Positions 18,113 through 33,239 of a DNA stretch of 61,555 nucleotides are shown in pieces. The stretch lies in NCBI GenBank assembly GCA_900321655.1, contig ONWU01000017.1, positions 1 through 61,555 on the forward strand, in the 5' to 3' direction. The number at the start of each line of letters is the position of its first letter. Within the stretch, counting starts at the first letter, position 1. The notes under the pieces were generated by a model that was given only the letters and a program-made list of their open reading frames with translations, did no database searches and was not told where the DNA came from. Source of the stretch: an uncultured Bacteroidales bacterium (GTDB taxonomy: Bacteria; Bacteroidota; Bacteroidia; Bacteroidales; UBA932). Both the position numbers and the translations under genes were made by a program.

Positions 18113-19879
18113 TTACTCCGAGAGTTCCAGCCAGCGCATTTCGGCTTCTTCCAGCTCCTGCTGGAGGGTGCCGTAGCGGGCCGATGCGGCCTGCAGCTGC
18201 TCCATAGACAGTTCTCCGCCGGAAAGCTGCGCTTCCAGAGAGGCCTTTTCGGCCTCCAGGGAGGAGAGTTTTTCCTCCAGCGCCTTCAATTCCTGCTGCT
18301 GCTTGTAAGAGAGTTTCTTAGGGGCAGCCGTCTTCACTTTTCCCTGAACCTGCGAGGGCTTTTCATCGGCCTTCCGGGAAGCCTCGTAGTCCTTGATGAA
18401 GGTTCTGTACTCTGTGTAATTGCCCACGAAGTCCTTCACCACACCGTCTCCGCAGAAGACGAAAAGATGGTCTACCAGACGGTCCAGGAAATGACGGTCG
18501 TGGGAGACAATCAAAAGAGAGCCCTTGTACTCCAGCAGGTACTCTTCCAGGATTTCCAGGGTGACGATGTCCAGGTCGTTGGTGGGCTCGTCCAGGATGA
18601 GGAAATTGGGCTGCTGCAAAAGGATGGTCAAAAGGTACAGTCTCCTCCTTTCCCCGCCGGAGAGGCGCTCCACGGGGTTATTCAGCATATCGTGCGTGAA
18701 GAGGAAGCGGCTCAGAAGATGGGTGTCATTGACGGTTTCCAGTACGGTCTGGCCGGGCTTGAACTGCATTCCGCTCTGGTGGTAATAGCCCACTTTCAGG
18801 GATTCTCCCAGTTCTATCACGCCTTCCAGCGTGCCGCCCAGCTCCGGCTTCCAGCCTCCGGTTATCAGGTTCAGGAAGGTGGTTTTTCCGGCGGCGTTCC
18901 GGCCCACGATGCCAACCCGTTCGTACCGCTGGAAATTGTAGCTGAAGTGCCTTAAGTAACACTTCTGCTCCCACCAGAAACTCACGTCCTTGCAATTGAT
19001 TACCTTGTTGCCCAGATAGGTGCTGGCGGCCTTGGTCTCGGAAAGGTCCACCTTCTTCTGCACGTAGCTGTCATCGGCCCTTTCCTTGATGTCCCAGAAG
19101 GCCTGCTTGCGGTATTTGGCCTTGCCGGTGCGGGCGCAGGGGCTGGCGTGCATCCACTCCAGCTCCCGGCGGTAGAGGTTGCGCACCCGCTCGGTTTCCG
19201 CATTGTAATTGTCTATGCGTTCCTGGCGCTTTTCCAGGAAATTCATATAGTCTCCGCGATAGATGTAGATGTTTCCGCGGTCCATCTCCATGACCGTATT
19301 GCACACCCGGTCCAGGAAATAGCGGTCGTGCGTAACCATAAAAAGGGTGCAGCGGCTATGCTTGAGATGGTTCTCCAGGAACTCGATGGCGTCTATGTCC
19401 AGGTGGTTCGTGGGCTCGTCCATTATGTAGAAATCGGCCTCGGAGGCCAGCATCTGCGTAAGGGCCACCCGCTTCACCTCTCCCCCGGAAAGTTCCTTCA
19501 TCAGGCGCTCCCCACTCAGGCCGAACTGGTCCAGCAACTGCGTCACCCGCAGTTCGTACTGCCACAGGTGGTCCTGGTCCAGCTGCGCTGTCCACTGGGC
19601 CGATGCATCCATCACCTGCCGGAAGACGGACTTCTCAGGGTCGTAGGCATACTCCTGCTCCAGGAAAGCAATGCGGATGTCCTTGAGAAAGAGTACCTTG
19701 CCACCGCTGTCGGAGGAGTCTTTCCCGGCCAGGATACGCAGCAGGGACGTTTTTCCCGTTCCGTTGGGGGCGATCAGGGCCACCTTGTCGCCTTCGTTGA
19801 TGTTGAAGTCGATGTGCTGGAACAGCACCTTGGGGCCGTAACTCTTGGAGATGTTCTCTATTTGCAGGTAACTGGGCAT
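18113..19879 (-). CDS. uup: ABC-F ATPase of the Uup type
   Basis: A 588-residue cytosolic protein with two ABC cassettes and no membrane domain. Walker A sites are APNGTGKTSLL and GRNAAGKTTFL, signatures LSGGEVKR and LSGGERRR, Walker B sites ending DEPTNHLD and DEPTNDLD. A C-terminal coiled coil of about 70 residues (KQQQELKALEEKLSSLEAEK onward) is the Uup feature, used to bind branched DNA or ribosomes. The start MPSYLQIENISK at 19879 lies only about 3 nt after the predicted transcription start, so the in-frame GTG/ATG codons further out belong to the promoter. Array A lies directly upstream. Confidence 0.92.
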   Translation of the reverse strand: MPSYLQIENISKSYGPKVLFQHIDFNINEGDKVALIAPNGTGKTSLLRILAGKDSSDSGGKVLFLKDIRIAFLEQEYAYDPEKSVFRQVMDASAQWTAQLDQDHLWQYELRVTQLLDQFGLSGERLMKELSGGEVKRVALTQMLASEADFYIMDEPTNHLDIDAIEFLENHLKHSRCTLFMVTHDRYFLDRVCNTVMEMDRGNIYIYRGDYMNFLEKRQERIDNYNAETERVRNLYRRELEWMHASPCARTGKAKYRKQAFWDIKERADDSYVQKKVDLSETKAASTYLGNKVINCKDVSFWWEQKCYLRHFSYNFQRYERVGIVGRNAAGKTTFLNLITGGWKPELGGTLEGVIELGESLKVGYYHQSGMQFKPGQTVLETVNDTHLLSRFLFTHDMLNNPVERLSGGERRRLYLLTILLQQPNFLILDEPTNDLDIVTLEILEEYLLEYKGSLLIVSHDRHFLDRLVDHLFVFCGDGVVKDFVGNYTEYRTFIKDYEASRKADEKPSQVQGKVKTAAPKKLSYKQQQELKALEEKLSSLEAEKASLEAQLSGGELSMEQLQAASARYGTLQQELEEAEMRWLELSE

Positions 19880-19886
19880 AGGACTG

Positions 19887-19894
19887 CAAAGATA
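19887..19894 (-). promoter_or_regulatory. -7 promoter box of uup
   Basis: TATCTTTG on the minus strand; predicted start near 19882, about 3 nt before the ATG. The nearest array-A site begins about 43 bp upstream of that start. Confidence 0.65.
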
Positions 19895-19924
19895 CGGAAA
19901 AATTGGCTTTCTGTGCACTCTGCC

Positions 19925-20086
19925 GTCCCCGGTCATTGCCACTTGCGTCCCCGGTCCGTGATTTGTCGGCAGACCTGCGACGCTTTTCGGCCTTCTGAGC
20001 GTTCTAACGTCCCGGGTCCCAGGGCAAAGTGCGGACCGGGGACGGAAACACCGAGGACCTGGGACAGAAAGACCGGGGACGGGGAC
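19925..20086. repeat. Array A: 22-bp phased sites GGACCNGNGAC
   Basis: Eleven-bp sites begin at 19925, 19947 (both GTCCCCGGTC form), 19971 (AGACCTGCGAC), 20009 (GTCCCGGGTCC), 20033 (GGACCGGGGAC), 20055 (GGACCTGGGAC) and a shortened copy at 20077 that runs into the mnmA stop codon. Spacings are 22-24-38-24-22-22. The 27-bp centre at 19982-20008 begins GCTTTTCGGCCTTCTG and is shared with arrays B and C. It fills the whole gap between mnmA and the uup promoter. Confidence 0.85.
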
Positions 20087-21492
20087 TAGATTACCCCGCT
20101 GCCCAGCATTTCCTCTCCGTCGTACCAGACGGCAAACTGGCCGGGGGAGATGCCCCGCTGGGGCTCATCGAAAAGAATGTACAGGCCACTCTCCCGCATC
20201 AGGAGGGTGGCACTTTGCAGGGGCTGGCGGTAACGGATGCGAACGCGGTAGCGGCGCATTTCTCCGGGCCGCATAGCCAGGTCTGTCCTGATCCAGTGGA
20301 TTTCCTCCGGGGCTACCCGCAGGCAAAACCGGCTCAGACCTTTGTGGTGATGGCCTTCCCCAACGTAAATGCGGTTGGCTTCCGTGTCCGTGGCAATCAC
20401 GAACACCGGTTCTGAGTGTCCTCCTATCCCCAGCCCCTTTCGCTGGCCGATGGTATAGAACTGAGCGCCCTCGTGCCGGCCCACTATGCGGCCGCAGGGG
20501 TTCTCTTTGTAACGGGTTTTCTTGATGTGATGCTTCCCGCTACGGTAGGTTTCCGTCTCAAACTCAATCTGATAGGTAATGGGAAGCGCCAGGTGGTTCA
20601 GTTCTGCATCGGTGAGTGCCGCCACGGCATCGGCCCTGTAGGGGCTCTCGCCCAGCGGTTTTCCGTCGGTGGTGAGCACCTTCTCTTCCGGGGCATAGTG
20701 CACGGTGCGCTCCAGTGTCTGGCCCTCTTTCAGAAGGCCGGTAAGGGTTTCCTGCTGCCACTGGTACAGAGGATCCGTTGCATAATAGGGGTCAAACACC
20801 TCCACCACATCGCCTTCCACCGAGGCCAGTTTCTGCTTCAGGAAGGTGGGAAGATCCACCTTTCCCACAAAGCAGATGCCCTGGGAGTCCTTTTTTTCGG
20901 CCGACGGGAGGTCCGCCTCCTTGGCGATGCGCCGCACTTCCGGCTTGGTCAGATGGCCGATGGGAAACAGGGCCGTAGCCAGTTGTTCCTGGCTGAGCTG
21001 GCACAGGAAGTACGTCTGGTCCTTGTTGGGGTCGGTGCCCTCGAGGATCCGGTACACACGAGATGCCCGATCGGAGTCGGGCATGACGGATTCCTTCCGG
21101 CAGTAGTGGCCGGTGGCTACATAATCGGCCCCGTACTTGCGGGCCACTTCCCAGAAGGCGTCGAACTTGATTTCCCGGTTGCACAGGACGTCCGGGTTGG
21201 GCGTGCGGCCTTTGGCATATTCATCGAACATATAGTCCACCACCCGCTGGCGATACTGGCCGGACAGGTCCACGAAATAGAAGGGAATGCCAATCTTGCG
21301 GGCCACCATCTCGGCCACAAACTTGTCTTCCTCCCACTCGCAATCTCCGTGAAGGGTGCTGTCTGCATCGTGCCAGTTCTGCATGAACATGGCAAACACG
21401 TCGTAGCCCTCCTGTTTCAGCAGATACGCTGCAACAGAAGAGTCTACGCCTCCCGAGAGGCCGACACAAACCTTTATTCCGGACTTGTCCAT
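20086..21492 (-). CDS. mnmA: tRNA-specific 2-thiouridylase MnmA with a large insertion
   Basis: A 468-residue enzyme that adds sulphur to U34 of Lys, Glu and Gln tRNAs. The PP-loop SGGVDSSVAAYLLK lies at about residue 13; catalytic Cys are Cys104 (PNPDVLCNREIKF) and Cys207 (DSQGICFVGK). The C-terminal barrel begins at YTIGQRKGLGIGG near residue 346. Between about residues 231 and 333 there are roughly 100 extra residues compared with the usual 360-residue protein. The start MDKSGIKV at 21492 is chosen because an in-frame TTG at 21504 is part of the promoter box. Array B lies upstream, array A downstream. Confidence 0.92.
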   Translation of the reverse strand: MDKSGIKVCVGLSGGVDSSVAAYLLKQEGYDVFAMFMQNWHDADSTLHGDCEWEEDKFVAEMVARKIGIPFYFVDLSGQYRQRVVDYMFDEYAKGRTPNPDVLCNREIKFDAFWEVARKYGADYVATGHYCRKESVMPDSDRASRVYRILEGTDPNKDQTYFLCQLSQEQLATALFPIGHLTKPEVRRIAKEADLPSAEKKDSQGICFVGKVDLPTFLKQKLASVEGDVVEVFDPYYATDPLYQWQQETLTGLLKEGQTLERTVHYAPEEKVLTTDGKPLGESPYRADAVAALTDAELNHLALPITYQIEFETETYRSGKHHIKKTRYKENPCGRIVGRHEGAQFYTIGQRKGLGIGGHSEPVFVIATDTEANRIYVGEGHHHKGLSRFCLRVAPEEIHWIRTDLAMRPGEMRRYRVRIRYRQPLQSATLLMRESGLYILFDEPQRGISPGQFAVWYDGEEMLGSGVI

Positions 21493-21501
21493 TTCCGTCT
21501 G

Positions 21502-21509
21502 CAAAAATA
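21502..21509 (-). promoter_or_regulatory. -7 promoter box of mnmA
   Basis: TATTTTTG on the minus strand; predicted start near 21497, 5 nt before the ATG. The first array-B site begins 42 bp upstream of it. Confidence 0.65.
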
Positions 21510-21538
21510 CTGTTTTTTGCCGGAAGGAACAACCCCCC

Positions 21539-21745
21539 GTCCCCGGTCCTCGGCTTTTCCATCCCGGGTCCGAAATAGTTCCGTCCCAGGTCCGGGCCTT
21601 TTACGTCCCGGGTCCGCACTTTTCCCTGGGACCGGGGACGGCAGAGCGCACAGAAGGCCGAAAAGCGTCGCAGGTCCACCGATAAAACACGGACCGGGGA
21701 CGCAAGGGCCACGGACCTGCGACACAAGACTAACGAACCGGGTCC
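21539..21745. repeat. Array B: 22-bp phased sites GGACCNGNGAC
   Basis: Sites begin at 21539, 21561, 21583, 21605 (all in the GTCCC-GGTCC orientation), 21629 (GGACCGGGGAC), 21667 (GTCGCAGGTCC), 21691 (GGACCGGGGAC), 21713 (GGACCTGCGAC) and a degenerate one at 21735. Spacings are 22-22-22-24-38-24-22-22. The 27-bp centre at 21640-21666 is the reverse complement of the centre of array A. The array occupies the gap between the SGNH hydrolase stop and the mnmA promoter. Confidence 0.87.
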
Positions 21746-21770
21746 GGCGTCAGCAGAACGATGCAGAAGA

Positions 21771-22433
21771 CTATTTAAGCGATTCCAGAAGGAGTTTTTC
21801 CATCAGGGCATAGCCTGTGGCATTGGGGTGGACCGTGTCTGAGGTAAGGCCGTCGCGGACGCGGCCGTCAGGCCCTGCCAGCACGGAGCAGTAGTCTACG
21901 TACGTTACCCCGTGCCGATCGCAGTAGGCCTTGAGGCGGGCATTGAGGCTGCACACCTTTTCAAAACAGTCCGTCACTTCCTCTCTCCAGCGGAAATGAT
22001 AGGAAGGCAGTACGCTGCAGATAACCGGACGGATGCCGTTCTGCCAGCAGAGGTCTATCATCGTGAGGATATTGGCATAGGTTACATCTTCCACATAGGG
22101 GCCGCCCAGGTTCACGGCAATGTCATTGATACCGGCCAGGATGACCACGGTGGAGGCCTGGATGTCAATCACATCCTGGCGGAAACGGAGAACCATATTG
22201 GCGGTTTCTTCTCCGCCGATTCCCCGGCCGATAAAGCCCGTGGAGGCAAAGAACTCCGGCCTCTGGTCTGGCCAGCCGTCTGTGATGGAATCCCCGAACA
22301 GGACCACCCGGGGACCGGTGGGAGCAGTCAGGGCCGCATTGGCGGCGGCATAACGGGAAATGTGGGCGGGGTTCTGGGCCATCGCGCCAGAGGCCAGCAG
22401 CAGACCCGTCATCAGGATGAAGAACTTTTTCAT
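21771..22433 (-). CDS. Secreted SGNH/GDSL hydrolase
   Basis: About 220 residues with a signal peptide (MKKFFILMTGLLLASGAMAQ). The four SGNH blocks are clear: VVLFGDSITDGW with the nucleophile Ser, GRGIGGEETANM with Gly, VVILAGINDIA with Asn, and DTVHPNATGY with the Asp-His pair. It is probably a periplasmic esterase or acetylesterase acting on carbohydrates or lipids; the substrate cannot be told. An ATG two codons earlier (22439) is an equally possible start. Its promoter box (22472-22479) is back to back with that of lplA. Confidence 0.9.
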   Translation of the reverse strand: MKKFFILMTGLLLASGAMAQNPAHISRYAAANAALTAPTGPRVVLFGDSITDGWPDQRPEFFASTGFIGRGIGGEETANMVLRFRQDVIDIQASTVVILAGINDIAVNLGGPYVEDVTYANILTMIDLCWQNGIRPVICSVLPSYHFRWREEVTDCFEKVCSLNARLKAYCDRHGVTYVDYCSVLAGPDGRVRDGLTSDTVHPNATGYALMEKLLLESLK

Positions 22434-22471
22434 GGTCATAGTTGATAATTAATGGGCAGTTCGTGTCAACA

Positions 22472-22496
22472 CAAAGATACAATTTTTGTACATTTG
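22472..22496. promoter_or_regulatory. Divergent promoter boxes for the SGNH hydrolase and lplA
   Basis: TATCTTTG on the minus strand (22472-22479) serves the hydrolase; TACATTTG on the plus strand (22489-22496) predicts a start at about 22501, exactly at the lplA ATG. The two boxes are 9 bp apart. Confidence 0.65.
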
Positions 22497-22500
22497 TCCC

Positions 22501-23448
22501 ATGAAATTTCTTACCAACTTTTGCACCAACCCCCACTGGAACATGGCCTTCGACGAGTTCGTGCTGGAAGGGGTGCGGGCCACGGACCCTGTATTCTACC
22601 TGTGGCAGAATGCGCCGGCCGTCATCATCGGCCTCAACCAGAGCCCGTATGCAGAAGTCAACCTCCCCTACCTCAAGGAAAAAGGCATCGTGCTGGCGCG
22701 GCGCGTAACGGGCGGCGGGGCCGTCTACCACGACCTGGGAAACCTCAACTACAGCATCGCCGGGCCCGTTTCCCGGATGGAAAAGGCCTTTGAGATTGTG
22801 CCCGGGGCCCTTCGGCAGCTGGGGGTACCGGCCGAAAGAACCGGCCGGAACGACATCCTGGTGGAAGGGCGGAAATGCTCCGGCTACGCCAAACGCCTGA
22901 GCAAGGACCGGATGATGATCCACGGAACCCTGATGTGGGATGTGGACCTGGACGTTCTCACAGAGGCCCTTCGTGTACCGGGCAGCAAACTGGAAGCAGC
23001 CGGCATCGCCTCCGTCCACAGCCGTGTGGCCAACCTGAAGGAGTATCTACCCCAGTTCCCCACCCTGGATGCCTTCCGGGCCGCCCTGCAGGAGCAGCTG
23101 GCCGCCGGAGACGGAGAATACATCCTCACGGAGGAGCAGACGGCCCGGGTAGACAGAGAGGCCCGGGAGAAATTCTCCACTTGGGAATGGAACTACGGCC
23201 ACTCGCCCGCAACCACCCACGCCTGCCGGAAAAAATTCGCCTGTGGCACCGTGGAAGTGCTCTACAGCCTTCGGCACGGAGTGCTGACGGAAGTGGCGTT
23301 CCAGGGAGATTTCCTGGGCAACCGGCCCGCCGGGGAACTGGCCCTTCTCCTGAAGGGAAAACGCGTACAGGAACTCTCGGGGCTGGACGTATCGGCCTAT
23401 TTTGACCAGCTGGACAGTTCTTCCTTCGCTTCCCTGTTTGAAGCATAG
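22501..23448 (+). CDS. lplA: Lipoate-protein ligase A
   Basis: A 315-residue ligase attaching lipoate to the E2 and GcvH proteins. The substrate block RRVTGGGAVYHDLGNLNYS lies near residue 70, and the catalytic Lys is in GRKCSGYAKRLSKDRMM, with a C-terminal accessory domain after residue 240 (TWEWNYGHSPA). The ATG at 22501 coincides with the predicted transcription start, so the message would be leaderless; the TTG at 22486 belongs to the promoter. It diverges from the SGNH hydrolase gene. Confidence 0.92.
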   Translation: MKFLTNFCTNPHWNMAFDEFVLEGVRATDPVFYLWQNAPAVIIGLNQSPYAEVNLPYLKEKGIVLARRVTGGGAVYHDLGNLNYSIAGPVSRMEKAFEIVPGALRQLGVPAERTGRNDILVEGRKCSGYAKRLSKDRMMIHGTLMWDVDLDVLTEALRVPGSKLEAAGIASVHSRVANLKEYLPQFPTLDAFRAALQEQLAAGDGEYILTEEQTARVDREAREKFSTWEWNYGHSPATTHACRKKFACGTVEVLYSLRHGVLTEVAFQGDFLGNRPAGELALLLKGKRVQELSGLDVSAYFDQLDSSSFASLFEA

Positions 23449-23459
23449 GTTTTTTTTGC

Positions 23460-23467
23460 TAATTTTG
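23460..23467 (+). promoter_or_regulatory. -7 promoter box of the envelope operon
   Basis: TAATTTTG; predicted start near 23472, 2 nt before the ATG at 23474. Confidence 0.6.
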
Positions 23468-23473
23468 TGTCTT

Positions 23474-24223
23474 ATGAGACTTAATCTGACTATTCTGACT
23501 ATTTCGCTGGGCCTGCTGGCCGGGACGGTTTCCCGCGCCCAGGTTTACAGCGGTTACCGTCATTTCGACGGGGAGCACCGCAACGAGGTCAGCGGCTTCC
23601 TCACCGGCGGTTTCAACGTGGTCACCGGCACCTTCTTCTCGGAAGCCGCCACTTATACCTATCATTTTTCTCCGCGCTGGAGCATATCGGCCGGTGAGCA
23701 GGTGCAGTTCCTGAAGTGGGTGTATTCGGCCGATGTCATGGGCACCTACCGCATTCCCATCAAGAAGAAAACCAACATCTACATAGACGGCCGTTTCCTT
23801 TTCAACTACTACGGCCAGTGGAAGGTTAGCGAACCCATCATCAACCTGTCGGCCCTGCTGGAAACCTCCTATGTGGATCTCCGCTGGGGCTGGAGCTTTG
23901 TGAGCTATCACAAATCCGGCATCAAGAAAGAGTACAAGTCGTTTACGGATGCCAGCTACGCAGAACCCCTGGTGATGACTTTCGGGCTGGGCGTGAACAT
24001 CCGGGAGCGCAGCAACCCCTGGAACCTGGGCCTGTACATCCGCAACTACGACCTCTTCTATTACGAGAACTGGAACATCAACTGGGGCATCCGCTTCCAC
24101 GCCACCCTTACGCCCCTTATGAAACTCTACGGAGAGTTCAACGTGCGCCCGGCCGGCAGTCTGAGCCAGCTGGCTACCCGCTACGAAACCTCCCTGAAAG
24201 TAGGACTCCGTTATATCTGGTAG
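23474..24223 (+). CDS. Outer-membrane beta-barrel protein
   Basis: A 249-residue exported protein. The signal peptide MRLNLTILTISLGLLAGTVSRA is followed by alternating hydrophobic/polar strands rich in Tyr and Trp, ending in an aromatic residue (VGLRYIW), as in outer-membrane barrels of about 10-12 strands. No specific family is recognised. It is the first gene of a five-gene run (outer-membrane protein, phosphoesterase, membrane protein, DPP4-like, GH20) with gaps of 1-6 bp. The start is fixed by the signal peptide and by the promoter box 7 bp upstream. Confidence 0.8.
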   Translation: MRLNLTILTISLGLLAGTVSRAQVYSGYRHFDGEHRNEVSGFLTGGFNVVTGTFFSEAATYTYHFSPRWSISAGEQVQFLKWVYSADVMGTYRIPIKKKTNIYIDGRFLFNYYGQWKVSEPIINLSALLETSYVDLRWGWSFVSYHKSGIKKEYKSFTDASYAEPLVMTFGLGVNIRERSNPWNLGLYIRNYDLFYYENWNINWGIRFHATLTPLMKLYGEFNVRPAGSLSQLATRYETSLKVGLRYIW

Positions 24224-24224
24224 T

Positions 24225-25244
24225 ATGAAAAAGATTCTTATTCTAAGCATATTGGCGGCGGCGGCCGTTCTCTCCGCCTGCGAAAAAGTGAGCCCGGCGG
24301 GCATCCTGATGGCCGGAACGGCCGTGGAAGACCGCGTCAAAATGTCCAACCTCTTCTATAAGGAGCATATGGACGACCATACCGTTCTGATGGCATTTGG
24401 AGATTACACCTTCATCGTGGGGGCAGACAGCCACCTCGCCACGGACAGCGGCCGTCTGGACGAGATGATGGCCATCGGCCTGGAGAATGAAGACCTCTTT
24501 TACGCCCACCTGGGAGACCTGGCAGACACCAAGGCGGAATACTATTCCACCCTGGATTCCCTCCTGAAGGAAGCCAAGAAGCGGTATGTTCCCAAGTACT
24601 ATACCCAGATCAACGAGTACGAGTACGTCTCCAAGTTGAACCAGGACGAGCATCCCCGTCCCGTCACCTACGACGAGATTACCTTCCCCTTCTTCCCGGT
24701 GGTGGGAAACCACGACATCACCCACAACGGATGGGCCCTGTGGTCCAACATCTTCTACTCGTCCTTCTACGAGATCGATGTCATAGACTTCCTGCCGGAG
24801 GGAGACATCGCCTTCGACCACCTCATCTTCCTGGATTCGGCCAGCGGCACCCTGGGAAAAACCCAGATAGACCTGATCAACCAGGGCGTTCTGGACGGGA
24901 AATATGCCGATGGGGAGTCCATGTACCGCTATACCTTCGTATTCTCCCACACCAACATCTTCCGGCCCCAGTTCTTCGAGTTCGCCTCCACTTTCACCCG
25001 CGAGGAGACCTTCTTCCTGCTGGACCAGTTTGAAAAGTGGAATGTAAGCGCCGTTTTCTGCGGCCACGTGCACACCTGGGATGAGCGAAACTTCAACGGA
25101 GTGCACTACCTCACCCTGGAAGCGATGAGCGAAAGGAACAACCCGGAACCCGGCAACTACCTGGTGCGGATGCACGTGGGAGAGGATGAGCTGGCCTGGA
25201 CGCCCGTGAAAATGAATTATACGCCCAAGAACAAGAAAAAATAA
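24225..25244 (+). CDS. Metallophosphoesterase lipoprotein
   Basis: A 339-residue lipoprotein (lipobox LSAC after MKKILILSILAAAAV). The calcineurin-like metal motifs are GADSHL, HLGDLAD, VVGNHD, FSHTN and FCGHVH in order, giving a dinuclear centre. It acts in the periplasm or on the outer membrane on a phosphate ester; cyclic nucleotides, phospholipids or sugar phosphates are all possible. It starts 1 bp after the barrel gene. A second, unrelated lipoprotein of this superfamily lies at 53707. Confidence 0.88.
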   Translation: MKKILILSILAAAAVLSACEKVSPAGILMAGTAVEDRVKMSNLFYKEHMDDHTVLMAFGDYTFIVGADSHLATDSGRLDEMMAIGLENEDLFYAHLGDLADTKAEYYSTLDSLLKEAKKRYVPKYYTQINEYEYVSKLNQDEHPRPVTYDEITFPFFPVVGNHDITHNGWALWSNIFYSSFYEIDVIDFLPEGDIAFDHLIFLDSASGTLGKTQIDLINQGVLDGKYADGESMYRYTFVFSHTNIFRPQFFEFASTFTREETFFLLDQFEKWNVSAVFCGHVHTWDERNFNGVHYLTLEAMSERNNPEPGNYLVRMHVGEDELAWTPVKMNYTPKNKKK

Positions 25245-25250
25245 CAAGCT

Positions 25251-25676
25251 ATGTCACGTCCCGGAAATGGAATAGGGTGGATCATCACCCTGGTTATCGT
25301 GGCCATATTGGCCGGAATCTTCTACTTCAGATACTGCTGGGTTTTCTCCGACGGCACCAAGACCGGAGAGCTCAACTCCCTCACCTACACGGGTTATCTC
25401 TTCAAAACCTACGAGGGTGAGATCATCCTCACCGGCTACGGCAGCAAAAACGCCTCCGGAACCGTTCAGTCCAAGAACTTCAAGTTCTCCGTTTCCAACA
25501 AGGAGGTGGCCGAGAAGCTTCGCCAGATGACGGGCCTCCGCGTAACGGTGCACTACAAGGAGTACAAGGGTGCCCTGCCCTGGAGAGGCTATGAAAAAGC
25601 CATCGTGGACAAGGTGGTGGAAGAGCCCGTTCCGGCACAGGAACACTCCACTCCCCAAGACGAGTTTTTCCTATAA
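25251..25676 (+). CDS. Small single-pass membrane protein
   Basis: A 141-residue protein with one N-terminal membrane segment (WIITLVIVAILAGIFYFRY) and a soluble periplasmic or cytosolic domain carrying GYLFKTYEGEIILTGYG, a block I recall from conserved Bacteroides proteins sometimes mislabelled as 6-phosphogluconate dehydrogenase. Nothing in the sequence supports an enzyme role. It sits 6 bp after the phosphoesterase gene and 3 bp before the peptidase. Confidence 0.75.
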   Translation: MSRPGNGIGWIITLVIVAILAGIFYFRYCWVFSDGTKTGELNSLTYTGYLFKTYEGEIILTGYGSKNASGTVQSKNFKFSVSNKEVAEKLRQMTGLRVTVHYKEYKGALPWRGYEKAIVDKVVEEPVPAQEHSTPQDEFFL

Positions 25677-25679
25677 CAT

Positions 25680-27704
25680 ATGAGACGAACTATTTTATCT
25701 GCAGGCGTATTTCTCGCCTGCACTTTTGCTTTTGCGCAAAACCATGTCCTGGACACCCGGGAGCCCCATCCCGGAAAAGACCTCAGTATGGAAGACGCCG
25801 TGTATAATGGCGTAGGCTATGCCCGCGGCCTGGTCCGCTGGATAGACAAGGATCACTTTATGCTGTCCAAGGACTACCGCACCCTGCTCCAGGGCTCTGT
25901 GGATACGGATGCCCTGGAGCCGTACACTTTCCATCGGCCTTCCTCGCCCAAGGGAGACGTGAGCCCTGCCGGCTACAGCGTTTATCTGGACGGAGACTCC
26001 TTCTACGGGGAAAAAGACGGCCGAACCGTGGAGATCGGCGTTTCCCAAGACCGGAACATCGTGTACGGCGGCACGATGATGAGAAACGAATTCGGCTTCA
26101 CGCAAGGGTATCTCTGGAGCCCGGACGGAAAGAAAGTGGCGTATTACAAGAAGGACCAGTCCCGCGTGACGGACTTTCCGCTTCTGAACATCCGTACCCG
26201 CACCGGTGAGCTGGAGCTTATCAAATACCCGATGAACGGAATGGACTCCGAACTGTTGCAGGTGGGTGTCTACGACTTTGAAACGGAGACCACCACCTGG
26301 ATGGATGTGACGGACTTCTCCGAAGAGCGTTTCATCACCAACCTCTCCTGGAGCCCGGACGGGAAGTATCTGTTTGCCCAGGTGCTGGACCGCAGCCAGC
26401 ATCATATGAAGTTGAACCAGTACAGGGTGGCCGATGGCCGCTTTGTGAAAACCCTCCTTACGGAAGACAACGAGGCCTGGGTAGAGCCCCAGGACCCCAT
26501 CCATTTCCTGGAGGGCCGAACGGATGTCTTCCTCTACCGCACCGACAACCGGGACGGCTACAAGAACCTCTACCTGGTGGATACACTGGGCACCCTCGGC
26601 CGCCTGACGGCCGTGGATGCCGACGTGGAATACGTGTCTAATGACGGCAAGAGCGTCTTTTATACATCGGCCCAGAATTCTCCCGTGGAGAACCACCTGT
26701 ACCGAGTGGATGTCCGGCTGCCGCAAAGGAATGCGGTGGCAAAGGCCCGGCTGGGAAAGCCCGTGCAGCTCACCCGCGGCCGCGGCTGGCACCAGGTTAG
26801 CCTCAGCGAAGACCACCGGTGGTTCCTGGACCAGGTATCCCACCTCAACCTGCCCGGCCGTCTCAGCCTCTGTTCGGCCGACGGAAAGACGGAGCGGGAA
26901 CTGGCTACGCTGGAAGACCCTCTGGAGGGCTGGAATTCCTGCCGGGTGGAACTGGGCACCGTTCCCAGCGCCGACGGGCTGTATGAGAATTACTATCGGC
27001 TCATCTATCCCAAGGACTTTGACCCTTTGAAGAAATATCCCGTTATCCTTTACGTGTACGGCGGCCCCCACAGCCAGCTGGTACAGGACAGCTGGCTGGC
27101 CAGCATCCGGATGTGGGAGATGGTGATGGCCCAGAAAGGCTATATCGTCTATGTGCAGGACAACCGCGGCACTTCCAACCGCGGTGCGGCCTACGAGAAA
27201 GCCATCAACCGCCAGTGCGGCCAGGCCGAAATGGAAGACCAGATGGTGGGGATCAATTGGCTTCGCAGCCTGCCGTACGTGGATGCCGACCGCATCGGCG
27301 TACACGGCTGGAGCTACGGCGGTTTTATGACCATCAGCCTGATGACCCACTACCCGGATGTATTCCAGGTGGGAGTGGCCGGCGGCCCGGTCATAGACTG
27401 GAAATGGTATGAAATCATGTATGGAGAGCGGTATATGGATACGCCCGAGACCAACCCCGAGGGCTTCCAAAAGACCTCTCTGGTAGAGAACGCCCAGAAC
27501 CTGAAGGGACACCTTCTTGTCATTCAGGGAGCCATAGACGACACCGTGGTATGGGAGCACAGCCTCAGCTTTATCCAGCGCTGCATAGACCTGGGCATTC
27601 CCGTCCACTACTTCCCCTATCCCGTCGCCCGTCACAATGTGGCCGGCCGCAACCGGATTCACCTGATGAACAAAGTAACCGCCTATTTCGAAGATTATCT
27701 CTAG
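25680..27704 (+). CDS. Dipeptidyl-peptidase IV-like S9 peptidase
   Basis: A 674-residue secreted peptidase (signal MRRTILSAGVFLACTFAFAQ). Residues about 80-440 form the DPP4-type beta-propeller (SWSPDGKYLFAQVLDRSQ); the rest is the alpha/beta-hydrolase domain with nucleophile Ser in GWSYGGFMTISLM near residue 545, Asp in GAIDDTVVW and His in PVARHNVAGR. It probably releases X-Pro or X-Ala dipeptides in the periplasm; the N-terminal Glu-Glu pair cannot be pinned with certainty. It differs from the S9 protein at 1885 in length and propeller sequence. Confidence 0.92.
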   Translation: MRRTILSAGVFLACTFAFAQNHVLDTREPHPGKDLSMEDAVYNGVGYARGLVRWIDKDHFMLSKDYRTLLQGSVDTDALEPYTFHRPSSPKGDVSPAGYSVYLDGDSFYGEKDGRTVEIGVSQDRNIVYGGTMMRNEFGFTQGYLWSPDGKKVAYYKKDQSRVTDFPLLNIRTRTGELELIKYPMNGMDSELLQVGVYDFETETTTWMDVTDFSEERFITNLSWSPDGKYLFAQVLDRSQHHMKLNQYRVADGRFVKTLLTEDNEAWVEPQDPIHFLEGRTDVFLYRTDNRDGYKNLYLVDTLGTLGRLTAVDADVEYVSNDGKSVFYTSAQNSPVENHLYRVDVRLPQRNAVAKARLGKPVQLTRGRGWHQVSLSEDHRWFLDQVSHLNLPGRLSLCSADGKTERELATLEDPLEGWNSCRVELGTVPSADGLYENYYRLIYPKDFDPLKKYPVILYVYGGPHSQLVQDSWLASIRMWEMVMAQKGYIVYVQDNRGTSNRGAAYEKAINRQCGQAEMEDQMVGINWLRSLPYVDADRIGVHGWSYGGFMTISLMTHYPDVFQVGVAGGPVIDWKWYEIMYGERYMDTPETNPEGFQKTSLVENAQNLKGHLLVIQGAIDDTVVWEHSLSFIQRCIDLGIPVHYFPYPVARHNVAGRNRIHLMNKVTAYFEDYL

Positions 27705-27705
27705 T

Positions 27706-29595
27706 ATGAAACGCCTCCTTACTCTGCTTGCCGCCCTGGCGCTTTGCGCATCGGCCTATTCCCAAGTGCCCGCTCCCCTGGAGCTGACCCCTTCCGAAGG
27801 CACGCCCAACCTGACGCGGGAGATTTCCCGCAAGATCGGCGGCAAGGCCTTTGCCAAAAAGACGGCCAACCTGCCCGCCTTCGCCCGGGAGCAGGCCTAC
27901 CAGCTCATCGTTACGCCGAAGGGCTATAAGATTGAGGCCAATACGCAGCAGGGATACTTCTATGCCCTGCAAACCCTCAAACAGATGCAGACCTGCGGAA
28001 CCGTGTACGATTATCCCCGTTTCCAGTACCGCGGCTTTATGATGGATATCTCCCGCCATTTCCGGGACAAGGATTTCATCCTGAAGCAGTTGGAAGCCCT
28101 GGCCAGTCTCAAGATCAACCAGTTCCACATGCACCTGACGGACGACGCCGGCTGGCGCATCCAGATAGACAAGTACCCTCTTCTCACCCGGCAGGCCGCC
28201 TGGAGAGTAGGCGAAACCTGGCAGGACTGGTGCGACAAAGGGCGTCAGTACTCGCAGGAAGGCGCCCCGGAAGCCAGGGGAGGCTATCTCACCAAGGCCG
28301 ATATCCGGGAAATCCTGGACCGGGCAGCCCAGCTGCACATCAACGTGATTCCGGAAATCGAGATGCCAGGCCATAGCCGGGAAGTGGTCTTTGCCTATCC
28401 GGAAGTAGGCTGCCGGGAAGGAAGTTACGAGCTGTGCCCCGGCAAGGAAGCCACCTTTGAACTGCTGGAGGGCATACTGGAAGAAGTGATAGAGCTCTTC
28501 CCTTCCCCGTACATCCACGTGGGAGGAGACGAGGCCGACAAGAGCCACTGGAAAGAGTGCCCGGACTGCCAGGCCCGCATGAAGGCCGAAGGACTGGCCA
28601 ACGTAGAAGAGCTCCAGAGCTACCTGATCAAACGCATCGAGCGCTTCATCAACGCGCATGGCCGACAGCTGCTGGGCTGGGACGAGATCCTGGAAGGCGG
28701 CCTCTCCCCCAACGCTACCGTCATGAGCTGGCGGGGCACCCAGGGTGGTCTGGAAGCCATCCAGCAGGGCCACGACGCCGTGATGACGCCCGGCCGCTAC
28801 TGCTACCTGGACAAGGTGCAGGACGCCCCCATCTACGAGCCTGAGGGCTTCGGCGGCTTCCTCTCGCTGGATGTCGCCCATTCCTACGAGCCCCTGGAAG
28901 GAATGCCGGAAGGGGCCGAAATGCACCTTCTGGGCGTGCAGGGAAACCTCTGGGCCGAAAGGATCCCCACCGATGAACACTACGAGTATATGATGTACCC
29001 GCGCATCGCCGCCATAGCGGAGGTGGGCTGGTCCCAGCCGTCCCGCAAGGAGGGTTTCCGCCCGCGCGTAACCCGCTGGAACGATGCCCTCATCGCCGCC
29101 GGCTACCACGCCTTCGACCTGCACAAGGAATACGGCGAGCGCCCGGCCTTCAAGAACGGAATCCGGCACAAGGCCGTAGGTAAGAAAGTGACCTACAACC
29201 ATCTGTGGAACCGGGGCTATCCCGCAGCCCGCGAAGCCACCTTCACAGACGGTTTGGGAGGCGGCTGGTCTTACGGAGACGGTCGCTGGCAGGGCTTCCT
29301 GTCGGATATCGATGTGGTCATCGACCTGGAAACCGAGCAGGACATCCACTTCGTGGGCGGCACCTTTATGGAGGAGCCCGGTCCCGGCATCTTCCTCCCG
29401 AAGTCTGTGGAGATCTGGCTGTCGGCCGATGGCGAAAACTTTGAGCAGGTTGCCGTAATTCCCAACGAAATCCAGAAACACGGCCAGAGCTACGTTCTGT
29501 TCGGCACACCCCTCACCGCCCGCGCCCGCTTCGTGCGCTTCGTGGCCCATCCCACCCGCGGTTTCCACTTCCTGGACGAGATTGTGGTGAACTGA
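27706..29595 (+). CDS. Beta-N-acetylhexosaminidase (GH20)
   Basis: A 629-residue exported GH20 enzyme. After the signal MKRLLTLLAALALCASAYSQ comes the GH20b-like domain, then the barrel starting at YRGFMMDISRHFRDKDF, with INQFHMHLTDDAGWRIQ and the catalytic Asp-Glu in IHVGGDEADKSHW near residue 275. The last 130 residues (from GLGGGWSYGDGRW) form a beta-sandwich resembling F5/8C-type carbohydrate-binding modules. It removes terminal GlcNAc/GalNAc from glycans, which fits a host-glycan or mucin user. It follows the peptidase by 1 bp. Confidence 0.93.
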   Translation: MKRLLTLLAALALCASAYSQVPAPLELTPSEGTPNLTREISRKIGGKAFAKKTANLPAFAREQAYQLIVTPKGYKIEANTQQGYFYALQTLKQMQTCGTVYDYPRFQYRGFMMDISRHFRDKDFILKQLEALASLKINQFHMHLTDDAGWRIQIDKYPLLTRQAAWRVGETWQDWCDKGRQYSQEGAPEARGGYLTKADIREILDRAAQLHINVIPEIEMPGHSREVVFAYPEVGCREGSYELCPGKEATFELLEGILEEVIELFPSPYIHVGGDEADKSHWKECPDCQARMKAEGLANVEELQSYLIKRIERFINAHGRQLLGWDEILEGGLSPNATVMSWRGTQGGLEAIQQGHDAVMTPGRYCYLDKVQDAPIYEPEGFGGFLSLDVAHSYEPLEGMPEGAEMHLLGVQGNLWAERIPTDEHYEYMMYPRIAAIAEVGWSQPSRKEGFRPRVTRWNDALIAAGYHAFDLHKEYGERPAFKNGIRHKAVGKKVTYNHLWNRGYPAAREATFTDGLGGGWSYGDGRWQGFLSDIDVVIDLETEQDIHFVGGTFMEEPGPGIFLPKSVEIWLSADGENFEQVAVIPNEIQKHGQSYVLFGTPLTARARFVRFVAHPTRGFHFLDEIVVN

Positions 29596-29633
29596 CACCG
29601 TCCCAGAAATTAGTGATTTTTACCGATAAATGC

Positions 29634-29641
29634 TATTTTTG
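29634..29641 (+). promoter_or_regulatory. -7 promoter box of the GH26 gene
   Basis: TATTTTTG; predicted start near 29646, leaving a 13-nt leader. Confidence 0.6.
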
Positions 29642-29658
29642 GAAAAACAAATCGGCCG

Positions 29659-30801
29659 ATGAAACACTCACTTACCCTTTGTATCGTCCTGGCTGCCTGC
29701 CTGAGCGGCTTTTGCAGCTGTGACCGCGGGCCCCGTCCCGTAAATCCCAACGCCACGCCCGAGGCCTGCGAGCTGCTGGACTTCCTCTATTCCATCAGCG
29801 GGAAGTACACCCTGGCTGGGGAGCACAATTTCTCCAGTGACCTGGAGCGTTACGACGCCGAGGTGCTGGCCATCACCGGAAAACTTCCGGTGGTCTGGGG
29901 CAGCGATTTCAGTTTCAATGACATAGGAGATGGCGCGGAAAGATACCAGCACGCCGGTCCGCTCAATCTCACGGTTCCGTTTGACCGGCCCTGCGTAAAC
30001 ACGGGCCGCACGGTGGCCGAAGCCCGGCAGGATATTGTGGATACAGCCATCCGCAAATGGGCCGAAGGCCGCATCATCACCCTGATGTGGCACTGCTGCG
30101 ACCCTCGCTACACAGACGGCAACGACTGCAACGGAGACAAAGTCTGGACCATGGACCAGGGCCCCTCGGACGAGGAGTGGGATGCCCTCTGCACCCCTGG
30201 AACGCCCCTCCACAATGCCTGGGAGCGGGAGATGGATACCGTTATTCCGTTCCTTCAGCAGTTGAAGGAGGCCCGCGTTCCTGTCCTCTGGCGCCCGTAC
30301 CACGAGATGAACGGCGCCTGGTTCTGGTGGGGCAACAAGCCCGGAGACCAGGGCTTCAAACGCCTCTGGATTATGACCTACGAATACTTCACCGGCAAGG
30401 GTCTGGACAACCTGCTGTGGGTCTGGGATCCCAACGCCCCGCGCGTCAAGGAGAACGATGATGCCTTCCCCTATGCAGATTTCTACCCCGGAAACGAGTA
30501 CGTGGACGTACTGGCGGCCGATATCTATGGCTGGGACTACAAGCAGTCTCATCACGACGAGCTGGTGGAGCTGGGCGGCGGCAAGCCCCTCGCGATGGGC
30601 GAAGTAGGGCAGCTACCCAGGGAACTGTCTGTATTTGAGGAGCAGCCCCGCTGGACCTGGTTTATGGTCTGGGGCTATTTCATCGGCGGGCACCGCTCCA
30701 CGGAAGACCATCTGGACCTGGTCCGCAGCATTTATGATTCCCCTCGTATCCTCACCCTGGACGAAATTTCCTTCGAAAAAGGCCGTCATCAGGTGAAGTG
30801 A
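29659..30801 (+). CDS. GH26 beta-mannanase-like lipoprotein
   Basis: A 380-residue lipoprotein; the lipobox is SGFCSC after MKHSLTLCIVLAACL. The GH26 barrel shows the acid/base Glu in WRPYHEMNGAWFWWG near residue 218 and the nucleophile Glu in AMGEVGQLP near residue 316; KYTLAGEHNF near residue 53 is the usual N-terminal block. It would hydrolyse beta-1,4-mannan or related glucans at the cell surface. It has its own promoter, so it is not strictly part of the preceding operon, though close to the GH20 gene. Confidence 0.92.
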   Translation: MKHSLTLCIVLAACLSGFCSCDRGPRPVNPNATPEACELLDFLYSISGKYTLAGEHNFSSDLERYDAEVLAITGKLPVVWGSDFSFNDIGDGAERYQHAGPLNLTVPFDRPCVNTGRTVAEARQDIVDTAIRKWAEGRIITLMWHCCDPRYTDGNDCNGDKVWTMDQGPSDEEWDALCTPGTPLHNAWEREMDTVIPFLQQLKEARVPVLWRPYHEMNGAWFWWGNKPGDQGFKRLWIMTYEYFTGKGLDNLLWVWDPNAPRVKENDDAFPYADFYPGNEYVDVLAADIYGWDYKQSHHDELVELGGGKPLAMGEVGQLPRELSVFEEQPRWTWFMVWGYFIGGHRSTEDHLDLVRSIYDSPRILTLDEISFEKGRHQVK

Positions 30802-30835
30802 TGCAGAAAAATTTGGAGCATCCGTTCTTTTTACC

Positions 30836-30843
30836 TATATTTG
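30836..30843 (+). promoter_or_regulatory. Promoter of tRNA-Val
   Basis: TATATTTG with TTG at 30813-30815, 20 bp apart; predicted start 30848, 5 nt before the tRNA. Confidence 0.7.
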
Positions 30844-30852
30844 CAGTCCTTT

Positions 30853-30927
30853 GAGGGCATAGCTCAGTTGGTTTAGAGCGCTTGCTTGACAGGCAAGAGG
30901 TCCGCAGTTCAAATCTGCGTGTCCTCA
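30853..30927 (+). tRNA. tRNA-Val(GAC)
   Basis: A 75-nt cloverleaf: acceptor GAGGGCA/TGTCCTC, anticodon stem CTTGC/GCAAG with loop TTGACAG giving anticodon GAC (Val, GUC/GUU codons), T-loop TTCAAAT. CCA is not encoded. Followed 8 nt later by a strong terminator. Confidence 0.94.
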
Positions 30928-30934
30928 CAAAGTC

Positions 30935-30985
30935 CAGGAAATTGATAATCAGCAAATTACTGACATATCAGTTTCCTGTTTTTTT
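30935..30985 (+). terminator. Rho-independent terminator of tRNA-Val
   Basis: CAGGAAATTGATA pairs with TATCAGTTTCCTG (13 bp, one wobble) and runs into seven T residues. Confidence 0.88.
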
Positions 30986-31038
30986 ATGCGACTAGTTGCC
31001 GACTCAAAAAAATCCAATTTCAGGTCCAAAGAAATACT

Positions 31039-31223
31039 GTCCCCGGTCCGGAGGAGTACCGTCCCTGGTCCGCGTTTCGGCCTCTGACCGGGGACGGTTT
31101 TCGGCATTCTGTGCCTTCTGGCGTCGCAGGTCCCGAGCAAAAGTGCGGACCGGGGACGGAAAGCCTACGGACCAGCAACAGAAACCCAGAGGACCTGCGA
31201 CGGAAAGCTCACGGACCTGCGAC
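31039..31223. repeat. Array C: 22-bp phased sites GGACCNGNGAC
   Basis: Sites begin at 31039 (GTCCCCGGTCC), 31061 (GTCCCTGGTCC), 31085 (TGACCGGGGAC), 31123 (GTCGCAGGTCC), 31147 (GGACCGGGGAC), 31169 (GGACCAGCAAC), 31191 and 31213 (both GGACCTGCGAC). Spacings are 22-24-38-24-22-22-22. The 27-bp centre at 31096-31122 matches that of array A in 20 of 27 positions by eye. The array fills the gap between the tRNA-Val terminator and the phosphatase promoter. Confidence 0.87.
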
Positions 31224-31273
31224 GGAAAAACAACAAAATGGCCGGGGTTGTCCGGTCGTTTCGTTTTTTTCGT

Positions 31274-31281
31274 TATATTTG
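31274..31281 (+). promoter_or_regulatory. -7 promoter box of the SpoIIE-type phosphatase gene
   Basis: TATATTTG; predicted start near 31286, adjacent to the ATG at 31287. The last array-C site ends 63 bp upstream of that start. Confidence 0.68.
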
Positions 31282-31286
31282 GCTCT

Positions 31287-33239
31287 ATGAAACGGAAATT
31301 CCAGTCCTTCTCAATCAGGCTCACCCGGAGAATCATCCTGGTGATGCTTTTCACCATGACCATTGCCTTCGGCGTCGTTATATTCTTTTCATCCATAGGA
31401 ACCTATACTATGATGAACGATCACTTCCGGGATATCCTCAAGATGACCGGAGAGAGAATCGAAGGTGTGCTCAAGGCCGTGGAAGTCTCATCCATCAACA
31501 ACGCGGATGAAGTAGCGGACCAATTGTCCAGCCCGGAAGACGTGCAGGAAGCCCTCAAGCACGAACTCCGTATGAATACCCATATCACAGGATGCGCAGT
31601 GGCCTTTGTCCCCAACTATTATCCCCAGAAAGGATACTGGTATGAACCGTACGCCGCCCACGGGGAAGATGGCCGCATCGAAGTGTTCAATATCGGCTCC
31701 AAGGAACACGACTACCACAATACAGAGTGGTTCATCAACGGATTGGAAGATGAGGACGGCTACTGGTCCAACCCCTATTTGGACACCCTGGGAGCCAAAA
31801 ATATGCTCACCACCTATACCCTGCCCCTAAGGGATGCCCAGGGCCGGATAGCCGGTGTCTTCGGAGCCGATATCACGCTGGAATGGCTCACCAAGCAGGT
31901 GCAGGAGATGAATCTGCACGCCAATGAGTTCGGTTTCGGTGAAGAAGACGATTATACCCGGGAGGCGTACTGTTTTATCCTGGGCCGAAATGGAGACTAC
32001 CTGGTGCATCCGGACCCCCATCGCATCCTGGCCAAGAGCTACTTTGACTACGTCGGAGAGAGCAAGGGCGGTCCGTACGAAAGACTGGGCCGGGATATGC
32101 TGGACGGGAAAAGCGGATTCCATATCACTAAAATAGACGGTGTCCGATCCTTCATCTATTTCGCACCCGTTATGCACAACGGATGGTCCATGGCCATCGT
32201 GGTTCCCAGCATCACCGTTTTCAGCCCGGGTATCCTGCTAGGGCTGATCATTCTCCTGATGCTGATCATCGGCCTGCTGATAGCCTTCCTGCTCACCACC
32301 CGCACCATCCGCAGTACGGTGCGCCCGCTCAAGCAGCTGGCCCAATCGGCCGAAGAAGTGGCCAAGGGAAATTTCGACACGCCGCTGCCCCAGCTTAGCT
32401 ATAACGATGAAATCCGGCAGCTGAGAGACTCCTTCCAGAATATGCAGGAATCCCTTACCGGCTATATCCAGCAGCTTACGGAGGCCGCCACCCGGCAGGC
32501 CGCCATAGACCGCGAACTGGAGATCGCCCGCGGCATCCAGATGTCTATGCTGCCCAAAGTCTTTCCTCCGTATCCCGAAAGAAATGACATCGACATCTTC
32601 GGCCTACTCACACCGGCCAAAACGGTGGGCGGAGACCTTTACGACTTCTCCATCCGGGATAACAAGCTGTTTTTCTGCATAGGGGACGTATCCGGAAAGG
32701 GCATCCCGGCCGCCATCCTGATGGCCGTTACCAGCTACCAGCTGCGCACCCTTTCGGCCGATGAAGACAACCCCGCCCGCATCCTGGGGGCCCTGAACGA
32801 CAGCCTGTCCAGCCGCAACGAATCCCTGATGTTCGTCACCATTTTCTTCGGCGTGCTGGACCTTTCCACCGGAGAACTCCATTACTGCAACGCGGGCCAC
32901 GACGCTCCCATCCTGAGAGAGGCCGATGGCAGTACCCGTTATATGGATGTGGAATCCAATGTGGCCGTGGGCGTCATGCCCAACTGGTCTTTCGAGCTGC
33001 AGCAAACCCGCATTGCGCCCGGCACCACCCTCTTCCTTTTCACCGACGGCCTGACAGAAGCCGAAAACCCCGTCCAGGAGCTCTTTGGAATGGACCAGAC
33101 CCTCCAGGCCGCCCGGGAGGCCGATGACAGCACCCCTTCCGCCTTCCTCGGCCACGTCTCCGAAGCCGTCAAGACCTTTGTCTCCGGAGCCGACCAGAGC
33201 GACGATCTTACGATGCTGGCCATCCAGTACAAGGGATAG
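31287..33239 (+). CDS. Membrane-bound SpoIIE/PP2C-type serine phosphatase with Cache and HAMP domains
   Basis: A 650-residue sensor phosphatase. TM1 is about residues 12-35 (IILVMLFTMTIAFGVVIFFS), the periplasmic Cache-like sensor spans about 40-305 (NTEWFINGLEDEDGYWSNPY), and TM2 is ILLGLIILLMLIIGLLIAFLL, followed by HAMP and a C-terminal PP2C domain with metal-binding Asp in VGGDLYDFSI and CIGDVSGKGIPA. It resembles RsbU and would dephosphorylate an anti-anti-sigma or similar partner in response to an external signal; no partner is nearby. The ATG at 31287 sits at the predicted transcription start. Confidence 0.9.
   Translation: MKRKFQSFSIRLTRRIILVMLFTMTIAFGVVIFFSSIGTYTMMNDHFRDILKMTGERIEGVLKAVEVSSINNADEVADQLSSPEDVQEALKHELRMNTHITGCAVAFVPNYYPQKGYWYEPYAAHGEDGRIEVFNIGSKEHDYHNTEWFINGLEDEDGYWSNPYLDTLGAKNMLTTYTLPLRDAQGRIAGVFGADITLEWLTKQVQEMNLHANEFGFGEEDDYTREAYCFILGRNGDYLVHPDPHRILAKSYFDYVGESKGGPYERLGRDMLDGKSGFHITKIDGVRSFIYFAPVMHNGWSMAIVVPSITVFSPGILLGLIILLMLIIGLLIAFLLTTRTIRSTVRPLKQLAQSAEEVAKGNFDTPLPQLSYNDEIRQLRDSFQNMQESLTGYIQQLTEAATRQAAIDRELEIARGIQMSMLPKVFPPYPERNDIDIFGLLTPAKTVGGDLYDFSIRDNKLFFCIGDVSGKGIPAAILMAVTSYQLRTLSADEDNPARILGALNDSLSSRNESLMFVTIFFGVLDLSTGELHYCNAGHDAPILREADGSTRYMDVESNVAVGVMPNWSFELQQTRIAPGTTLFLFTDGLTEAENPVQELFGMDQTLQAAREADDSTPSAFLGHVSEAVKTFVSGADQSDDLTMLAIQYKG

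Follow-up and report, generated by a model that had tools for sequence, protein, structure and literature searches.

Three intergenic arrays of short sites (A, B and C) in a 61,555-nucleotide stretch of DNA from an uncultured Bacteroidales bacterium (positions 1 to 61,555 of contig ONWU01000017.1, assembly GCA_900321655.1; hereafter the window) are probably REP-like elements that are not autonomous and supply the repeats of a REPtron-like pair. Their partner would be a divergent Y1 transposase of the HUH type, from subclade X1 of a group that we call clade X, and comparisons among related genomes lead us to give this reading a probability of about 0.8. Each array holds one 97-bp core of four 11-bp sites spaced 24-38-24 bp from start to start: a site GTCNCNGGTCC, a 13-bp loop, the inverse GGACCNGNGAC, a 27-bp centre and a second, identical site/13-bp loop/inverse pair. 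Arms of further sites, mostly in 22-bp phase, extend from the core. Clade X consists of probable, divergent Y1 (HUH) transposase genes of about 305 amino acids whose flanking repeats share this build; they retain the HxH motif and the tyrosine in an AYIPRN motif.

Elements of this build stand next to clade X genes far more often than shuffled sequence would produce. Parsing succeeded for 29 of 30 loci, and 25 of these clade X genes had a four-site element scoring at least 50/66 within 700 bp, the largest shuffled score being 44; the genes below 50/66 were L272 (47), L300 (44), L274 (43) and L276 (37). With another score and 600-bp flanks, 41 loci gave 34 parsed genes, of which 26 exceeded the maximum of 680 shuffles, four of them on both sides. 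The flank of G150 is cut short by the end of its contig, and G204 has a degraded downstream element. The repeats also differ with the enzyme. Other clade X elements have a 40-bp centre in place of the 27-bp one, and mapping centre length onto the protein tree required 2 changes, compared with 9.6 on average after shuffling and with none of 500 shuffles as low (28 of 34 rows labelled). By inspection, the site is GTCGCAGGTC in X1, GGCGCAGGTC in near relatives of X1, and GGG[GC]AAGGTC, GGGCCAGGTG and others elsewhere. Flank inspection and centre length thus give each transposase type its own repeat family, with locus L279 as an exception, and the site follows the transposase subclade broadly, with exceptions.

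The type found in the window is associated with X1. Arrays of the GACCNGNGAC type lie in the flanks of X1-side genes in G172 (with diverged sites), G224, G225 (on both sides), G019, G226, G208 and G097; G226 also has one site pair that is off by a single base. Among the 11 genomes with arrays that were searched, nine have a clade X gene above 400 bits (G094 and G149 do not), and five have an X1-side gene according to the tree (G172, G224, G225, G019 and G226). Across 200 genomes of the genus, in counts that ignore relatedness, 15 had an X1-like gene; the core was present in 14 of these and in 21 of the other 185 (Fisher p 2.6e-11), X1-like meaning an A2 score of at least 415 bits, a cut chosen after seeing the gap from 418 to 388.

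The layout itself is not explained by chance. The next best four-site place in the window has 11 mismatches in 36 fixed positions, the best of 100 Markov-resampled windows had 12, and 437,595 bases of shuffled sequence gave no match at 11 or fewer. Counting sites with at most one mismatch, 14 arrays in this genome give 135 intervals between adjacent sites. Of these, 128 agree with the layout in length and orientation (87 same-direction intervals at 22, 27 at 24 and 14 at 38) and 7 are misfits. The single 11-bp site at that stringency occurs 35 times against 22 expected, a number reached by 1 of 100 shuffles; it is weak evidence alone, so it is the spacing that carries the signal.

The element is dispersed through its own genome (G000; 2.11 Mb in 59 contigs, 82% complete, with the window as contig C37). 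Thirteen complete cores were found, five on C12, three on C37, two on C48 and one each on C39, C45 and C57, all spaced 24-38-24. The repeat lies between genes: the three window arrays are intergenic, and the context of others was read by eye on C12 from 60 to 80 kb. There are also partial copies, with right-arm sites only on C53 and tandem partial copies on C12 (77.6 kb) and C39; the longest arm lies on C12, near 77.9 kb, where 15 more sites follow in the 22-bp phase. Tandem partial copies of the centre plus right half, bounded at site ends, were seen at L021 (17582-18223), L024 (5822-6221) and L032 (3106-3520).

Among relatives, DNA similarity to array C found matches in 3 of 61 genomes, own genome included. 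A strict 35-bp pattern with one mismatch matched 8 of the 200 genus genomes, again counting its own, with a lone match in G036 and a variant in G115. A sequence model built from 27 cores, with cores from three of the scanned genomes (G000, G023 and G094) in its training set, scored 35 of 200 as core-positive; at most 20 candidates per genome were scored under stricter filters, and per-genome copy numbers are incomplete. We read cores in 13 relatives (G019, G023, G028, G071, G094, G097, G149, G172, G204, G208, G224, G225 and G226) with spacing left free at 21-26, 36-40 and 21-26. The 35 cores listed (one place twice) were 24-38-24 in 19 cases, 23-38-23 in 14 (G019, G028, G097, G149, G204 and G208) and mixed in 2 (G226). 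The initial annotation had asked whether copies elsewhere lack the 22/24/38 spacing: none of the 13 full cores in G000 does, 23 replaces 24 in some relatives, and 38 is constant throughout. Core spacing is rigid within a genome and shifts between species. Hairpin spacing, noted at L335-L339, L030, L031, L256, L275 and L278, was 23 in six relatives and 24 in G000 and others, uniform in each sampled genome except G226, as if tuned to the enzyme. In a wider contig scan, the only records among the matches listed to have four-site places with at most 5/36 mismatches were from Bacteroidales, the remaining matches being single 35-bp hits; reindeer, yak and rumen are among the sources in the titles of core-bearing records.

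Comparison of orthologous junctions provides a case of presence and absence. In G224 (Reindeer_1_mag_57), arrays stand on both sides of the mnmA-like gene (protein 95% identical), as in the window. In G019 (mnmA-like protein 87% identical), the two genes occur in the same order at the place of array A, 2 bp apart and with no array. The remaining relatives among the 12 junctions compared had no such arrays there; because most of them have different neighbours, the array A junction is one informative case, between species rather than strains. Together with the 13 cores in G000 and the cores in relatives, it supports the earlier view of the arrays as a real repeated unit, found in both orientations, whose behaviour is that of a mobile or spreading element. 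A different repeat family, beginning GTGCTGGAGCATCTCTTCAGGACCGGAATTGCGG, lies 5′ of mnmA in G208, G204 and G149 (L305, L308 and L310), and the spot upstream of mnmA looks as if it accepts various repeats.

Pfam Y1_Tnp was matched in 143 of the 200 genus genomes, by genes of about 300 amino acids, many flanked by their own repeats, and in two of four members of group A1. A profile aligned X1 with seven other RAYT-like genes of these genomes (276 columns, 99.7%), five of which match Y1_Tnp; a profile of the seven weakly matches chains named transposase (2xm3 and others, E 0.0025), 2xm3 being presumably ISDra2 TnpA. An NCBIfam search gave no credible match. Genomes carry one to three differing clade X genes rather than many identical copies. 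At E ≤ 1e-100, a cut that misses some clade X genes found by a second profile (as in G115), 48 of the 200 genus genomes have such a gene, 21 of them core-positive. Beyond the genus, in 295 genomes from the order, a set with one other known genome of the same genus, only the window's own genome matched at E ≤ 1e-60. G000 holds seven RAYT-like Y1 genes (L226 on C10, L227 on C15, L224 on C24, L228 on C29, L225 on C33, L223 on C47 and L177 on C50), several with one repeat on both sides that differs from gene to gene.

Several observations weigh against the pairing with X1, beyond the uncorrected relatedness and the post hoc cut of the 200-genome counts. L279 falls on the X1 side of the tree and bears a site like that of the other side; it is the gene of G165, the X1-positive genome without a core. 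X1 itself had no Pfam and no PDB match, and a structure model of the G115 clade X protein, made without an alignment, was uninformative (pLDDT 33). The foot GT[AG]G was found at 0 of 112 feet in 28 cores, with 6 occurrences within 6 nucleotides; this foot is also lacking in TnpA-Y1 classes 2.6 and 3, according to passages of PMC6006769. At stem positions 4 and 6, pairing (18 of 52 against a permutation mean of 24.1) was no better than chance. Fourteen of the 35 core-positive genomes lack a clade X gene at E ≤ 1e-100, including G149, G116 and G011 with 21, 14 and 11 core matches (both strands counted, among matches listed). G094, 90% complete, has the core and no clade X gene even in a more sensitive search, and G023 and G071 (97 and 95% complete) have cores but a clade X gene of another type only. 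Finally, the X1 gene is not in the G000 assembly, whose sole clade X gene, on C24, is flanked by other repeats. This last absence fits an assembly gap, because the X1 gene of G224 and of G019 is convergent to a neighbour identified by eye as GAPDH-like, and a GAPDH (gapA) match is missing from G000 but present in 14 of 14 control genomes; the X1 gene of G000 may be unassembled.

The strongest competing explanation, which we consider unlikely, is that a host protein (a regulator, or a nucleoid or centromere-like factor) binds the arrays cooperatively as double-stranded platforms and that the transposase link is historical only. Such a platform would suit the two-turn 22-bp phasing of 87 of 94 same-direction intervals and the occurrence of cores where no clade X gene was detected, as well as fixed bases that are conserved though stem positions 4 and 6 are unpaired in over half of the hairpins (match fractions 0.45 and 0.41). 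These unpaired positions fit a bulge as well as they fit double-strand recognition; covariation as proof of a hairpin structure was rejected, since the variable positions do not pair. Against a host platform stand same-build elements with other sites beside clade X genes, a centre length that tracks the subclade, and presence at one junction that differs between relatives. A host role of the arrays is possible. Less probable still are passive repeats spread by recombination and slippage alone, with no enzyme of their own. The tandem partial copies on C12 (77.6 kb), C39 and L032 and the recurring spacers in the 77.6-kb array of C12 speak for such a process, whereas complete rigid cores at 13 separate places of G000 and the link with X1-like genes, seen in nearly every genome that has one, speak against it. 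That the arrays are ends of another mobile element (integron, insertion sequence with a double-strand DNA transposase, or phage) is very improbable and was dropped: multi-site inverted ends are known in several transposons, but inspection by eye of the surroundings of the four arrays at 60-80 kb on C12 revealed no such gene, five viral-contig matches were single and without the four-site layout, and Rfam found only tRNA at gathering score in window positions 19000-32000. The same Rfam result led us to drop an RNA-family reading.

The initial annotation knew of no described family with this layout. The REP/BIME elements of REP-associated tyrosine transposases are nevertheless the closest known kind, because divergent, probable Y1 (HUH) transposase genes have repeats of this build in their flanks. 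According to passages of two papers on REP/BIME (REPIN) and TnpA-REP (RAYT) REPtrons (PMC6006769, PMC8266576), these systems likewise have dispersed intergenic palindromic repeats, Y1 genes each with its own flanking repeat family, and two palindromes in inverted arrangement. In relatives, our arrays show the genomic hallmarks of a REPtron, namely a gene flanked by the repeat, dispersed copies and a separate family for each gene. Unlike REP, they lack the GTRG foot and have four 11-bp sites at rigid spacing, extended by arms in which as many as 15 more sites keep the 22-bp phase; unlike in REPtrons, the transposase has about 305 amino acids, no row of the table passage of PMC6006769 matches its NH[GSC]H and AYIPRN motifs, and a small gene often lies directly 5′ of it. 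TnpA-Y1 subclass 2.6 shares an occurrence in Bacteroidetes and GTRG-less repeats, whose atypical secondary structures were recognised on manual inspection; in a comparison limited to motif and length, it differs in its median of 179 amino acids and its NH[LIV]H and YIH[QN]NP motifs (passages of Quentin et al., 2018, PMC6006769). IS200/IS605 elements share Y1 HUH motifs and subterminal hairpins, but our arrays are without a transposase gene and clade X consists of few differing genes, not many identical copies. Among open-licence PMC papers, we found neither the arrays nor clade X described, and no account of an HRDC protein as partner to transposases of this type. The arrays are most likely not ordinary members of the REP/RAYT kind but a variant of it whose layout is new.

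The E. coli TnpA-REP binds single-stranded REP, cuts adjacent to it and rejoins it, and the E. coli repeat requires stem mismatches (passages of PMC8266576). A model for the REP-like pair proposed here is that the clade X transposase would recognise folded inverted site pairs in single-stranded DNA, cut near them and then move or copy the element, the 22-bp arms growing afterwards by unit duplication. The small upstream gene may encode a protein that binds or presents single-stranded DNA. A same-strand small gene lies directly 5′ of 22 of 34 clade X genes, ending from 87 bases before to 26 after the assumed start and mostly within 4. Sorted by eye, 11 are of one unassigned type, 7 of another and 4 carry an HRDC domain, a domain known for nucleic-acid binding. 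Pfam confirmed HRDC in all four (L278, L254, L256 and L279; E 1.4e-15 to 4.2e-21) and gave no match for one member of each non-HRDC kind; the N-termini are alike across kinds (MKKFLEVL.DD..). Two clade X genes of the other side, L245 and L246 (G224 and G019), lie about 130 bases 3′ of dprA, which Pfam confirms in G019.

We tentatively suggest, at slightly less than even odds, that clade X is a new TnpA-REP-like class, seen here only in one Bacteroidales genus. The HUH transposase and an interchangeable small partner, which in some cases has an HRDC domain, would form an operon of two genes and act on a compound element of four sites; the arms of this element, in 22-bp phase, would grow and might be of use to the host as protein or structure arrays. 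REP repeats are common in bacteria, and this family bears on how they spread and why hosts retain their transposases. It offers many natural transposase-site pairs, with two centre lengths (27 and 40), two hairpin spacings (23 and 24) and a partner gene, and recognition, co-evolution and the need for a helper are therefore directly testable.

A re-scan of the window essentially reproduced the sites, orientations and spacings of arrays A, B and C first described, including the reversed centre of B relative to A and C (Table 1). The count of 7, 9 and 8 copies essentially holds, although the ninth site of B (21735) has two mismatches and C gains a degenerate outer site. The 22-bp arm phase applies to nearly all sites, the last site of A (20070 or 20076) being out of phase. 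Arm spacers had been called variable after GGAAA; in 14 arrays they are non-random, with the consensus (G/A)(G/C)(A/T)A(A/C) followed by a C-rich stretch.

Table 1. Arrays, cores and flanking features in the window
Feature	Position	Strand	Remarks
Array A	19925..20086	+	core 19947-20043 with short arms
Core of A	19947..20043	+	1 mismatch in 36 fixed positions
Array B	21539..21745	-	core 21605-21701 reversed; arms either side; just 5′ of mnmA-like gene
Core of B	21605..21701	-	0 mismatches in 36 fixed positions
Array C	31017..31223	+	core 31061-31157; left-arm site 31039, degenerate outer site 31017, three extra right-arm sites
Core of C	31061..31157	+	1 mismatch in 36 fixed positions
ABC-F ATPase-like gene	18113..19879	-	flanks array A; read by eye
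mnmA-like gene	20086..21504	-	flanks array A; read by eye
tRNA-Val	30853..30928		flanks array C
Open frame	starts near 31287		flanks array C

In 28 cores, the left loop matched the reverse complement of the right loop at 5.6 of 13 positions on average, against 3.3 in direct comparison; because of this resemblance, the core can be described as a rough dyad broken by an asymmetric centre. A nearby tRNA-Leu read by eye at L030 was not found by ARAGORN, and the idea of a conserved position was dropped. Three arrays lie within about 150 bases of tRNA genes, for Val (in the window), Leu (L097 1309-1394) and Glu (L335 1343-1415). An isolated exact 11-bp site at window positions 48159-48169, away from the arrays, is probably there by chance.

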